Positions 11,364 through 56,535 of a stretch of DNA of 64,000 bases are shown here, piece by piece. Positions within the stretch are counted from its first letter, which is position 1, and every line of letters begins with the position of its first letter. The position numbers and the translations under genes are program-made. Origin of the DNA: an uncultured Methylococcaceae bacterium (lineage in GTDB: Bacteria; Pseudomonadota; Gammaproteobacteria; Methylococcales; Methylococcaceae); contig CAIOOA010000228.1 of NCBI GenBank assembly GCA_903859815.1, positions 1-64,000 on the forward strand, in the 5' to 3' direction. Below the pieces are notes generated by a model. The model was not told the DNA's origin. It searched no databases and saw only the letters and a list, made by a program, of their open reading frames with translations.

Positions 11364-11820
11364 AGTTTAGCGACCCCTTATTATTTTGAAGTTCGTGGAT
11401 GGCAGCTTGCAAAGCGAGTTCGTAGCCTATGGCGCCGAGCCCACAGATGACACCTTTTGCGATGTCGGAAAAATATGACTGTTTGCGGAACGGTTCCCTA
11501 GCATGTACATTCGACAAATGCACCTCAATAAATGGGATATTGGTGGCAAGCAAAGCGTCTCGCAAGGCGACACTAGTATGAGTAAATGCACCGGGGTTGA
11601 TCAAGATGAACTCCACGCCTTCCGAATACCCGAGGTGAATTCGGTCAATGAGGACATGTTCAGCATTGCTCTGCGAGAAGGCGATGGTATAGCCTATTTC
11701 GCTAGCACGGGCAGCCAAGGTCTGCTCAATATCCCACAGCGTTTGGCTTCCATAAATTCTCGGCTCCCGTACTCCCAATAAATTGAGGTTTGGGCCGTTA
11801 AGCACTAAAATGTTTGGCAT
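11353..11820 (-). CDS. aroQ: 3-dehydroquinate dehydratase, type II
   Basis: This 155-residue protein has the type II dehydroquinase motifs: [18 protein letters not shown] with the catalytic Tyr/Arg region, [30 protein letters not shown] and [14 protein letters not shown]. It dehydrates 3-dehydroquinate to 3-dehydroshikimate in the shikimate pathway and is a soluble dodecamer in known relatives. It is the first gene of the aroQ-accB-accC-prmA operon. Confidence 0.96.
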
Positions 11821-52658: not shown

Positions 52659-55619
52659 ATGGCCACCACAGACTCACAGCCGAAACGAGTTTTCATAAGC
52701 TATAGCCACAAAGACGAAGACTGGAAAGAACGTCTGCATACCCAGCTTAAAGTGCTGGAACTGGAAAACCAGTTGACCGTATGGGAAGACCGCCAAATTG
52801 CCGCCGGAGACAACTGGAATCCGGCCATTGAACAAGCCATCAACTCGGCACAAGTCGCCATTTTGTTGATTAGTGCTGACTTCTTGGCTTCAAGCTTCAT
52901 CCGTGGCGAAGAAGTACCGCGCTTGTTGGAACGTCGGACGAAGGACGGCTTACGGGTCATTCCGTTGATTCTCAAGCCCTGCCCTTGGCAAGCGGTCCCT
53001 TGGCTGAAAGCCATCCAAGGCAGGCCCAAAGACAACAAGCCGCTTTCGGGCTTCAATGCGCATGAACAAGACCAATGCCTAAGCGATTTGGCAATGGAAA
53101 TTCTAGAATTGACGCGAAAGCCAGCGCAAGCTTGCCATCATGTACAAAATGCTAGTAACGGGGTTGCAAACCCCGTCACGCCTTCACACCCCGCAACGCC
53201 CATTCCGCCCAACAACCTCCCCTATCACAGCCTTGGCAGCTTGTTCAAAGGCCGCGACGGGTTTCTTGATGCTTTGCACCGTCAATTCCAGCGCGAACCC
53301 AAGCGCAAGCAAGCCATCGTGCCATGGCAAGCGATACACGGGCTGGGCGGCATCGGCAAATCCCGCGCCGCCGTAGAATATGCCTGGCGCTACGCCGACG
53401 AATACCAAGCCCTATTGTTCTTGAAGGCAGACAACCCGACTATGCTGGTTGGCTCGCTGGCCGGCCTGTGTCCGTATTTGGGCATAGACTTGGACACCAC
53501 CGACGAAACCTTGCGCGCCCAGACAGTAAAGCAATGGTTGCAGCGTCACCCTGGCTGGCTGTTGTTGGTGGACAATGTGGACGACGAAGTGGCGGCGGCG
53601 GCGGTGGACGGCTGGCTGCAAGCCTTGGACGGAGGCCATGTGCTGATTACCAGCCGCATCAAGGCATGGCGGCCCGAGGTGAAAGCCCATCGTCTGGATG
53701 TGCTGGATGTGGCATCCGCCGCCGACTTCCTGTTGGAGCGCACCGAAGACGGGCGGATCGCCAAGTCCGACGATGACAGTCTGGCGAAGGAATTGGCTAA
53801 GGAATTGGATGGCCTGGCCCTGGCCTTGGAGCAAGCGGGGGCATTCATCAACCGGCATAATCTAAGCTTTGCCGATTATCTCAGCCGTTGGCGTAAGGCC
53901 GACCAGAAAACCCGCGCATGGCATGACCCACGGGTGATGCAATACCCTAGGCCGTTGGCGACGACCTGGCAGACCAGTGTCGAAACCCTGAACCCACAAG
54001 CCCGCACCTTGCTGGATGTGCTGGCTTGGCTGGCCCCGGAACCGATACCGCGCTTCCTGTTTGATTATGCTTATGCCCCAGAGGGATTGCCCAAAGCCTT
54101 CTACGAAGACAGTGGGTTCCCGGCGCGGGTGTTGGCAAACATCATCCAAAGTAGGGCGGCAACCCCTTGCCGCCAAACGGATGGGCAGGACCCTAGTCGG
54201 CATGGGGATGCCGACCTACTGGAAGCTGATTGTCGGCATGGGGATGCCGACCTACCCCTTAATCAAAGCGGGGAGGAAGAGGCATTCGACTGTGAAGCCG
54301 CCTTGGCCGACTTGCGCGGCGTGTCATTATTATTGACCGCCAAGGAAGCCGATTACCCGAATGAAGGCAAACTGCACCGGGTATTGGCCTTGATTACCCG
54401 TGAACGGCAGGATGAGGCGGCAAGCCAGCAGAATCTGCAAGCGGCCTTGACCTTGGTGAATGCGGTGGCACCTTTGGATTCTGTTGATGTACGGTCTTGG
54501 CCGGTTTTGGAAGCCATCCAAGAACATGTAAACGCCGTGACCAATTTCGCCGAAGAACTAGGCATAGCCGAACCGACAGCAAGGCTGTTGAACCAATTAG
54601 CCATATTCTTCAAGACCAAAGCCCAATATCAACAAGCCGAGCCGCTGTATCGACGCAGCTTGAAATTGAATGAATCCAGTGAGCGGCCGGATCAAGGCAT
54701 CATTGCCACCTGCATCAACAATCTCGCCACTTTGTTGCAGGCCACTAACCGTTTGGAAGAAGCCGAGCCTTTGATGCGTAGGGCGTTGGATATCGACGAA
54801 GCCAGTTTCGGCAAGACGCATCCGAATGTCGCCCTCCGACTCAACAACCTCGCACTATTATTGCAGGACACTAACCGCTTGGACGAAGCCGAGCCTTTGA
54901 TGCGTAGGGCCTTTGCTATCGACGAAGCCAGTTTCGGCAAGACGCATCCAAATGTCGCCCGTGACCTCAACAACCTCGCCGGTTTGTTACAGACCACTAA
55001 CCGCTTGGACGAAGCCGAGCCTTTGATGCGCAGGGGGGTGGAAATTTTTGAACAAAGTTATGGCAAAACTCATCCCAATGTTGCCACCGCACTCAACAAC
55101 CTCGCTCAATTGTTACAGGCCACTAACCGTTTGGTTGAAGCCGAGCCTTTGATGCGCAGGGCTTTGGAAATCGACGAGGCCAGTTTCGGCAATAATCATC
55201 CCAAAATTGCCACCGATCTCAACAACCTCGCCCAGTTGTTAAAGGACACTATCCGCTTGGATGAGGCCGAGCCTTTGATGCGCAGGGCCTTGGACATCGA
55301 CGAAGCCAGTTTTGGTAAAGATCATCCAGAAGTTGCCACCGATCTCAGCAACCTCGCACTATTGTTAATGGCCACTAACCGTTTGGATGAAGCCGATCCC
55401 TTGATGCGCAGGGCTTTATTAATTTTCTTAAACTTCACCCGCAACACCGACCATCAACACCCGCATCTACAAATCGCATTCGGCAATTATTATGAATTAT
55501 TGCAAGCAATGGGCAAGACCGAAGCCGAGATACTAGAATGCCTATTGTCCCTAGGCCCGGAGGCGGGGTTCACGCCCGAGGCATTTGCGCAATTGTTGAT
55601 GAGTAGCAACACCCTCTAA
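52659..55619 (+). CDS. TIR-NB-ARC-TPR protein (NLR-like, candidate defence effector)
   Basis: This 986-residue protein has three parts. A TIR domain at about 8-150 has VFISYSHKDE at 11-20 and SSFIRGEEV, where Glu84 is in the position of the catalytic Glu of TIR NADases. An NB-ARC STAND NTPase at about 195-500 has P-loop GLGGIGKS at 228-235, Walker B LLLVDNVDD at 301-309, LITSR and a GLALALEQAGAFI motif. Six or seven kinesin-light-chain-type TPRs of 42 residues run from about 650 to 940. By analogy with bacterial STAND defence proteins, the TPRs should sense a trigger, the NTPase oligomerise and TIR deplete NAD+. This function is inferred. The linker at about 165-185 and 498-535 is coded by palindromic repeats. 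Confidence 0.88.
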   Translation: MATTDSQPKRVFISYSHKDEDWKERLHTQLKVLELENQLTVWEDRQIAAGDNWNPAIEQAINSAQVAILLISADFLASSFIRGEEVPRLLERRTKDGLRVIPLILKPCPWQAVPWLKAIQGRPKDNKPLSGFNAHEQDQCLSDLAMEILELTRKPAQACHHVQNASNGVANPVTPSHPATPIPPNNLPYHSLGSLFKGRDGFLDALHRQFQREPKRKQAIVPWQAIHGLGGIGKSRAAVEYAWRYADEYQALLFLKADNPTMLVGSLAGLCPYLGIDLDTTDETLRAQTVKQWLQRHPGWLLLVDNVDDEVAAAAVDGWLQALDGGHVLITSRIKAWRPEVKAHRLDVLDVASAADFLLERTEDGRIAKSDDDSLAKELAKELDGLALALEQAGAFINRHNLSFADYLSRWRKADQKTRAWHDPRVMQYPRPLATTWQTSVETLNPQARTLLDVLAWLAPEPIPRFLFDYAYAPEGLPKAFYEDSGFPARVLANIIQSRAATPCRQTDGQDPSRHGDADLLEADCRHGDADLPLNQSGEEEAFDCEAALADLRGVSLLLTAKEADYPNEGKLHRVLALITRERQDEAASQQNLQAALTLVNAVAPLDSVDVRSWPVLEAIQEHVNAVTNFAEELGIAEPTARLLNQLAIFFKTKAQYQQAEPLYRRSLKLNESSERPDQGIIATCINNLATLLQATNRLEEAEPLMRRALDIDEASFGKTHPNVALRLNNLALLLQDTNRLDEAEPLMRRAFAIDEASFGKTHPNVARDLNNLAGLLQTTNRLDEAEPLMRRGVEIFEQSYGKTHPNVATALNNLAQLLQATNRLVEAEPLMRRALEIDEASFGNNHPKIATDLNNLAQLLKDTIRLDEAEPLMRRALDIDEASFGKDHPEVATDLSNLALLLMATNRLDEADPLMRRALLIFLNFTRNTDHQHPHLQIAFGNYYELLQAMGKTEAEILECLLSLGPEAGFTPEAFAQLLMSSNTL
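53157..53180 (+). repeat. In-frame palindrome inside the TIR gene (linker 1)
   Basis: The inverted repeat ACGGGG/CCCCGT with a TTGCAAA loop codes for part of the linker NASNGVANPVTPS between TIR and NB-ARC. It resembles the palindrome at 52543-52571 upstream of the gene. It preserves the reading frame. Confidence 0.6.
54155..54251 (+). repeat. Cluster of palindromes inside the TIR gene (linker 2)
   Basis: GGCGGCAA/TTGCCGCC (54155-54174) is followed by two identical 20-bp palindromes, GTCGGCATGGGGATGCCGAC, at 54196-54215 and 54232-54251. They encode the repeated peptide RHGDADL. They lie between the NB-ARC and TPR parts, and no protein domain is recognisable there, so this looks like an in-frame insertion of intergenic-type repeats. 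Confidence 0.75.
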
Positions 55620-55630
55620 CAAGCTTATGA

Positions 55631-55929
55631 GAGGTCCCCTACGGGTCAAGGAAAGGCTTCATAAGGCTGATGAACGGTCTTCTATGGGTCTAGGAAAGGC
55701 TTCCATAAGGCATAGGAACGGTTTCATACTGGTTTAGGAATGGCTTCATAAGGTATATGAACGGTCTCCTACGGGTCTAGGAAAGGCTTCATAAGGCATA
55801 GGAACGGTCTCCTATGGGTCTAGGAAAGGCTTCCATAAGGCATCGAACGGTTTCCTACAGGTCTAGGAAAGGCTTCCATAAGGCACAAAACGGTCTCCTA
55901 CGGGTCTAGGAAAGGCTTCATAATGACGG
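55631..55929. repeat. Seven-unit 43-bp tandem repeat
   Basis: Seven direct units of 41-44 bp follow without spacers, starting near 55631, 55672, 55716, 55759, 55802, 55845 and 55888. Each has the core GAACGGTCTCCTACGGGTC, then TAGGAAAGGCTTCATAAGG, with an internal TCCTA-N6-TAGGA dyad (7-bp perfect in unit 6: TTTCCTA/TAGGAAA). The period is not a multiple of three and no frame is kept, so it is non-coding. It fills the gap between the TIR gene and the second YefM/YoeB pair. There are no unique spacers, hence no CRISPR. Confidence 0.88.
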
Positions 55930-55969: not shown

Positions 55970-56254
55970 ATGTCTATCCAAACCAGTTATTCCCAAGCCA
56001 GTGCGCGGCTGGCTGATTTCCTCGACGAGGCCACGCATAACCGCGAAATTGTCATCATCCAACGCCAAGGTGAGGAGGATGTCGCGCTGATAGCCGCCGA
56101 TGAATTGGCGGGCTTGCTGGAAACGGCTCATCTGCTGCGTTCCCCCGCCAATGCCGAACGGCTGTTGACGACTTTGGCTCGTGTACGCCAAAACCAAGGC
56201 ACACCGCAATCCATAGTGGAATTGCGGCGGGAAGTTGGGCTTGACCCTGCTTAA
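55970..56254 (+). CDS. YefM/Phd-type antitoxin (second pair)
   Basis: This 94-residue protein (MSIQTSYSQASARLADFLDEATHNREIVIIQRQGEEDVALIAADELAGLLET) is a clear YefM. The DNA-binding part is followed by an acidic helical tail for toxin binding. AGAGG precedes the ATG. The toxin gene follows 11 bases later. Antitoxin-toxin complexes of this type repress their own promoter, which would lie in or just after the tandem repeats. Confidence 0.87.
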   Translation: MSIQTSYSQASARLADFLDEATHNREIVIIQRQGEEDVALIAADELAGLLETAHLLRSPANAERLLTTLARVRQNQGTPQSIVELRREVGLDPA

Positions 56255-56265
56255 AGGTGCGGCGA

Positions 56266-56535
56266 ATGGCAAACAAACAACGAGATGCGGTTTTTCAACC
56301 TGAGTTTAGGGATGATCTGCGATACTGGGTTGAAACTGACAAGCGCACAGCTTTGCGTATTTTGAACTTGGTGGAAGCTATCATGCGTGACCCTTTTGAA
56401 GGTGTTGGCAAGCCAGAGCCGCTGAAATATTTGGGGGCTGGCACATGGTCACGGCGAATCACCCAAGAACATCGTTTGGTCTATGTGGTCAGCGATGCCC
56501 GTATCGATTTTGTACAGGCCCGTTACCATTACTGA
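56266..56535 (+). CDS. yoeB: YoeB-family mRNA interferase toxin (second pair)
   Basis: This 89-residue toxin keeps the YoeB signature: FRDDLRYWVETDKRTALRIL, DPFEGVGKPEPLKYLGAGTWSRRITQEHRLVYVV, and the C-terminal ARYHY with the catalytic His/Tyr. Relatives cleave mRNA at the ribosome A site. The start ATG at 56266 has AAAGG eight bases upstream; a GTG at 56257 is also in frame. Its stop is one base before the kdpD ATG, so kdpD may be read from the toxin transcript. Confidence 0.88.
   Translation: MANKQRDAVFQPEFRDDLRYWVETDKRTALRILNLVEAIMRDPFEGVGKPEPLKYLGAGTWSRRITQEHRLVYVVSDARIDFVQARYHY

Follow-up and report, generated by a model that had tools for sequence, protein, structure and literature searches.

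Structure of the Array and Its Surroundings

The window, namely the whole stretch of 64,000 nucleotides analyzed here, contains a tandem repeat with a period of 43 bp lying between the stop of a gene for a TIR - NB-ARC-like - TPR protein (55619) and the start of the antitoxin gene yefM (55970), which is followed by the toxin gene yoeB (table 1). Analysis with TRF confirms the presence of this array, which the earlier note had placed at 55631-55929: it is reported at 55633-55923 with 6.7 copies of period 43, 84% matches and a score of 401, together with an alternative of 130-bp period that starts at 55626. The same note correctly described the array as separating the TIR gene from the YefM/YoeB operon and as devoid of coding potential, since the open reading frames of 70 aa or more all lie outside it; among the stop-free runs that touch the array, the longest of those located mostly inside has 35 codons, and another of 44 codons enters from upstream. 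A 16-mer core of the repeat is matched eight times in the window, versus 0.33 times expected from shuffles, and seven of the eight matches fall inside the array. (Of note, the TPR region of the upstream gene also consists of a tandem repeat, which is coding, has a period of 126 bp and extends over 54715-55414).

The 43-bp period is real, but it does not correspond to the basic unit. Other arrays of the same genome have a period of 22 bp and, in register with these, each 43-mer is formed by two monomers, one of 22 bp (type A, e.g. CTCCTACGGGTCTAGGAAAGGC) and the other of 21 bp (type B, e.g. TTCATAAGGCATAGGAACGGT), in which one base of the consensus is missing. The monomer consensus is NNTTCCTACGGGTGTAGGANAG (also written TTCCTACGGGTGTAGGANAGNN); the monomer carries an imperfect dyad (TTCCTACGGGTGTAGGA) and forms intergenic head-to-tail repeats, the second monomer of each 43-mer (TTCATAAGGCATAGGAA) having its own partial dyad. 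The dyad TCCTA-N6-TAGGA, which had been attributed to every unit, is exact in four of the seven units and contains a mismatch in the other three. With 10.5 bp per helical turn, the period amounts to 4.1 turns; by this arithmetic the dyads drift by approximately 34 degrees per unit, and because this drift accumulates along the array they do not lie strictly on one face of the DNA, as the earlier note had it.

Table 1. Coordinates of the Array, Its Monomers, and Related Genes (positions refer to the window unless a locus is named)
Feature	Position	Strand	Remarks
TIR - NB-ARC-like - TPR protein gene, upstream neighbor	52659..55619	+	986 aa; TIR ThsB-like by PADLOC; outside repeat
Whole array	55626..55923	+	13 monomers, i.e. 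about 6.7 copies of the 43-bp dimer; TRF, repeat finder, monomer parse
Type-A monomer 1	55636..55657	+	22 bp, CCCCTACGGGTCAAGGAAAGGC; monomer parse
Further type-A monomers	starts 55679, 55723, 55766, 55809, 55852, 55895	+
Type-B monomer 1	55658..55678	+	21 bp, TTCATAAGGCTGATGAACGGT; one base short vs 22-bp consensus
Further type-B monomers	starts 55701, 55745, 55788, 55831, 55874	+
First exact TCCTA-N6-TAGGA dyad	55767..55782	.	others at 55810, 55853, 55896
yefM antitoxin gene, downstream neighbor	55970..56254	+	PhdYeFM_antitox; outside repeat
yoeB toxin gene	56257..56535	+	YoeB_toxin; outside repeat
yoeB deletion comparison	window 56257-56535; L016 1130-1180; L061 1780-1890
ParA-like/small-gene loci	L039 4483-4833; L049 2362-2691; L067
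MKKHL-type gene loci	L037 213-608; L050 3556-3936; L107 1161-1562; L049 around 2914-2988

Distribution of the Repeat Family

The earlier note had suggested searching for the unit elsewhere in the genome and in relatives. A sequence-only model built from three monomers (R1) was searched in 38 genomes of the family (E <= 0.01). It recovers exactly four arrays in this genome (G000), on contigs C228 (the array of the window), C71, C74, and C198; four in the sister species G005, a freshwater Methylococcaceae MAG, on contigs C447, C500, C141, and C420 (hereafter with the prefix G5); and a single array, which is diverged, on contig C600 of G004 (G4C600), a genome from a third species of the genus. 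The other 35 of the 38 genomes gave no array at this threshold, in a survey of model and pattern searches that may miss highly diverged arrays. All three genomes in which arrays occur are drafts fragmented into 315 to 660 contigs, which may make exact copy counts inaccurate. The array of C228 is also found at the syntenic place in the second genome, and an assembly artifact is thus unlikely.

No relatives of the array were matched in plasmids, phages, or viral contigs, and the repeat was not described in any paper retrieved by our literature searches. Two sets of shorter matches were taken as chance: those of 16-17 bp on contigs C235 and C178, which are isolated and not part of an array, and those to Pseudomonas and Cyclobacteriaceae in the genome collection, which are single and non-tandem (the three Pseudomonas matches lie in near-identical DNA).

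Genes Adjoining the Arrays

The neighbors of the arrays are unrelated between loci. The TIR gene and yefM flank the arrays of C228 and G5C447, and a helix-turn-helix antitoxin-like gene adjoins that of C71; the 3' end of the latter gene also adjoins the array of G5C500, downstream of which lies what we take, from its sequence, to be a gcvP-like gene. The arrays of C74 and G5C141 are flanked by a large TPR-type gene and, on the opposite side, by a ParA-like gene plus a small gene without family, and that of C198 lies near a BrnT-like gene (below the Pfam cut-off) and a gene without Pfam family (MKKHLIIKFESLNQ...), here called the MKKHL-type gene. Four loci per genome with unrelated genes largely correspond to the finding that, according to the earlier note, would refute its proposal, namely the same array at unrelated loci without conserved neighbors.

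The MKKHL-type gene adjoins arrays in three species, and the places concerned are not syntenic: C198, G5C420 (where the array is inverted relative to the gene), and G4C600, with a C-terminal remnant beside G5C141. At approximately 40% identity, it is related to longer proteins that form a multi-copy family. A further copy of the gene, on contig C345 of G004, has no array.

Other features of these regions can be recorded here. The ParA-like ATPase gene followed by the small gene without Pfam family (MAKKTITISRKPT...) is conserved in all three species, and the array lies behind this pair in G000 and G005 only. In both G005 and the congener G001 most of the yoeB gene is deleted, with different breakpoints, and yefM is kept; apparently, the toxin was lost twice independently with retention of the antitoxin. 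Immediately upstream of the array, contig C500 of G005 starts with another tandem repeat, which has a period of 23 bp (AAAGCGGGAGCTTGGGAACCAGC; L017 1-140), and pieces related to this AAAGCGGGAGCTTGGGAACCAGC repeat are present near C198. There are several dispersed repeat families in the intergenic DNA of this genus.

Evolution of the Arrays

Adjacent monomers (lag 1) were compared with every second monomer (lag 2). The identity at lag 1 versus lag 2 is 0.56 versus 0.82 in C228, 0.64 versus 0.82 in G5C141, 0.50 versus 0.76 in G5C420, and 0.48 versus 0.76 in G5C447; the two values differ little in C71, C198, C74, and G5C500, the first three of which are monomeric. Autocorrelation peaks at 43 bp in C228, 44 bp in G5C141, 87 bp in G5C420 (0.80), and 65 bp in G4C600 (0.76). 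Hence, the higher-order repeat is locus-specific at most loci, being of 43, 44, 65, or 87 bp, or absent.

This organization can change at a single locus. The arrays of C74 and G5C141 occupy the same locus, with upstream flanks that are 94.5% identical, yet they are only about 71% identical to each other, have 12 versus 14 monomers, and are organized in dimers in G5C141 only. Similarly, the array of C228 is about 82% alike to that of the syntenic G5C447, versus approximately 95% identity for yefM and the downstream sensor-kinase gene, and in the alignment the two differ by one 43-bp unit, even if counts in short-read MAGs may be inexact. Locus-specific higher-order repeats and a differing organization at a shared locus are the behavior of a satellite that re-amplifies locally.

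Within one genome, the arrays of C198 and C71 share 87% identity over their whole length, and their loci are unrelated. Given that unit order and ends are also alike, the whole array was copied between loci. Between C71 and its ortholog G5C500 the array diverges at 17 of 242 positions, without significant difference between the core and other positions (p 0.31), whereas the core changes somewhat more slowly than the linkers in the comparisons of C198 with C71 (p 0.04) and with C500 (p 0.02), which are not independent of each other.

Possible Functions of the Arrays

In our analysis of possible functions, signs of selection on the array were not convincing, nor did any of them connect the array with its neighbors in the window. 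Among the functional explanations, the one that best survives is that of a multi-site binding array, in which a dimeric protein would read each dyad and the spacing of about two helical turns would allow cooperativity, for example at a nucleoid-organizing or segregation site. The dyad and the spacing of 21-22 bp are indeed kept in nine of nine arrays despite their different higher-order structure, conserved positions that lack pair covariation would be expected if DNA, and not RNA, were recognized, and a ParA-like ATPase gene adjoins the arrays of C74 and G5C141. However, that gene is present at just one pair of orthologous loci and the same locus of G004 has no array, the constraint on the core is not significant between the orthologous C71 and C500, and no candidate binding protein is known. 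Symmetric conservation was discarded as a sign of protein binding, for the information in the monomer profile is concentrated in both dyad arms, but several other axes give a symmetry as good as that about the dyad axis (r 0.55). We consider this explanation unlikely. It is less likely again that the arrays represent a few chromosomal sites for one putative dyad-binding protein, with selected spacing of 21-22 bp and drifting higher-order organization, a situation that would resemble that of eukaryotic satellite arrays keeping a protein-binding box.

Alternatively, hairpins transcribed in 3' or 5' untranslated regions might protect or attenuate transcripts as BIME or BOX repeats do, in keeping with the structured RNA proposed in the earlier note. 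The array has the same strand as the upstream gene at most loci, and three arrays other than that of the window fold somewhat better than their shuffles (z -1.65, -2.33, and -2.74). Against this, the array of the window gives z +0.89 on the plus strand and -1.48, i.e. only slightly better than shuffles, on the minus strand, and no excess of compensatory changes is found within or between units when 23-34 sequences are pooled. Arm pairing considered array by array gave a few scattered p values that were low (0.003 within units for G5C447 and 0.012 between units for G5C420), in opposite registers, and does not count as support. Moreover, the array of the window has no match in Rfam and its region contains no terminator-like site. 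A role in RNA structure or mRNA stability is therefore quite improbable.

It is even more doubtful that the array constitutes a non-autonomous mobile unit, moved alone or with the MKKHL-type gene by a transposase acting in trans, its tandem units being a by-product. Copies of whole arrays at unrelated loci, the presence of that gene, or of its remnant, next to arrays at four places that are not syntenic, in three species, and four matches to Y1-type transposases in the genome would fit such a unit. However, inspection of the ends of C198, C71, and C500 revealed neither terminal inverted repeats nor target duplications, the ends of C228 are different, and the gene on C345 of G004 lacks the array; with regard to MITEs, no empty array site was found, the ends having been compared by inspection only.

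Finally, the possibility that the array is a cluster of YefM-YoeB operators controlling the downstream operon has practically no standing even if it lies upstream of yefM in two sister species, because YefM operators are paired palindromes with a TGTACA core, 12 bp apart and over the promoter (PMC7730913), and this core occurs neither between the TIR gene and yefM nor within 300 bp upstream of the latter (in the 64-kb window it occurs only at 11504, 19000, 53141, and 56511), while six other array loci in the two species have no yefM and the yefM of G001 has no array upstream.

A Probable Dispersed Minisatellite and Its Significance

On balance, the array of the window probably represents one locus of a genus-restricted, dispersed 22-bp minisatellite, with presumably nothing specific for the TIR gene or the yefM-yoeB operon; the array probably has no role specific to these genes at this locus. 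Its units would be gained, lost, and homogenized through slippage or unequal recombination, events that could also yield locus-specific dimers such as the 43-mer of the window, and the rare copying of an array might seed new loci.

Some observations are in contrast with this interpretation. The spacing of monomers is 21-22 bp throughout and could reflect constraint, the core evolves somewhat more slowly than the linkers when C198 is compared with C71 or C500, the copies are few, and two species retain the family at the same loci. In addition, arrays recur beside the MKKHL-type gene in three species, which would not be expected of a purely neutral repeat, except if the gene had moved along with the array, as may have happened.

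The repeat family is new, but ordinary in kind. Its head-to-tail units fall within the range of approximately 10-100 bp, and unit number differs at the same locus between relatives. As in bacterial minisatellites or VNTR, units of tens of bases lie head to tail in intergenic DNA, with locus-specific copy number and local homogenization; what differs here is that one monomer family occupies several loci that are not linked, the majority of which have a higher-order repeat of their own. REP and BIME elements, which have a GTAG tetranucleotide 5' of a palindrome and are associated with RAYT (Y1) transposases, are likewise intergenic palindromic repeats with GTAG, and Y1-type transposases are present in this genome; however, the arrays are long and regular with a period of 22 bp, GTAG is part of the consensus dyad, and the Y1_Tnp matches are on other contigs, with no transposase next to those arrays for which flanks were read. 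Plasmid iterons are direct repeats of about 17-22 bp bound by Rep and share the spacing of roughly two helical turns, whereas the arrays are chromosomal, lie at several loci, and have no plasmid or phage match; no rep gene was recognized near those arrays for which flanks were read, and the test for an iteron was negative. Pneumococcal BOX elements, with the structure boxA-boxB(n)-boxC (PMC3049150), are also dispersed intergenic repeats with a variable number of central tandem units, and some arrays have common short ends (those of C198, C71, and C500, while C228 and C74 have others), but there are no boxA or boxC modules common to all loci, the copy number is very low, the organism is unrelated, and RNA structure is not supported for the array of the window.

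These results carry a caution: an array lying beside a toxin-antitoxin operon is not regulatory by default, and the rest of the genome should be surveyed first. Should a protein that binds the arrays come to light, their small number per genome would make them tractable chromosomal sites for deletion tests. The repeat family offers a compact bacterial case of satellite-like evolution, in which one 22-bp family has given rise to dimeric, trimeric, and tetrameric repeats within a single genus.
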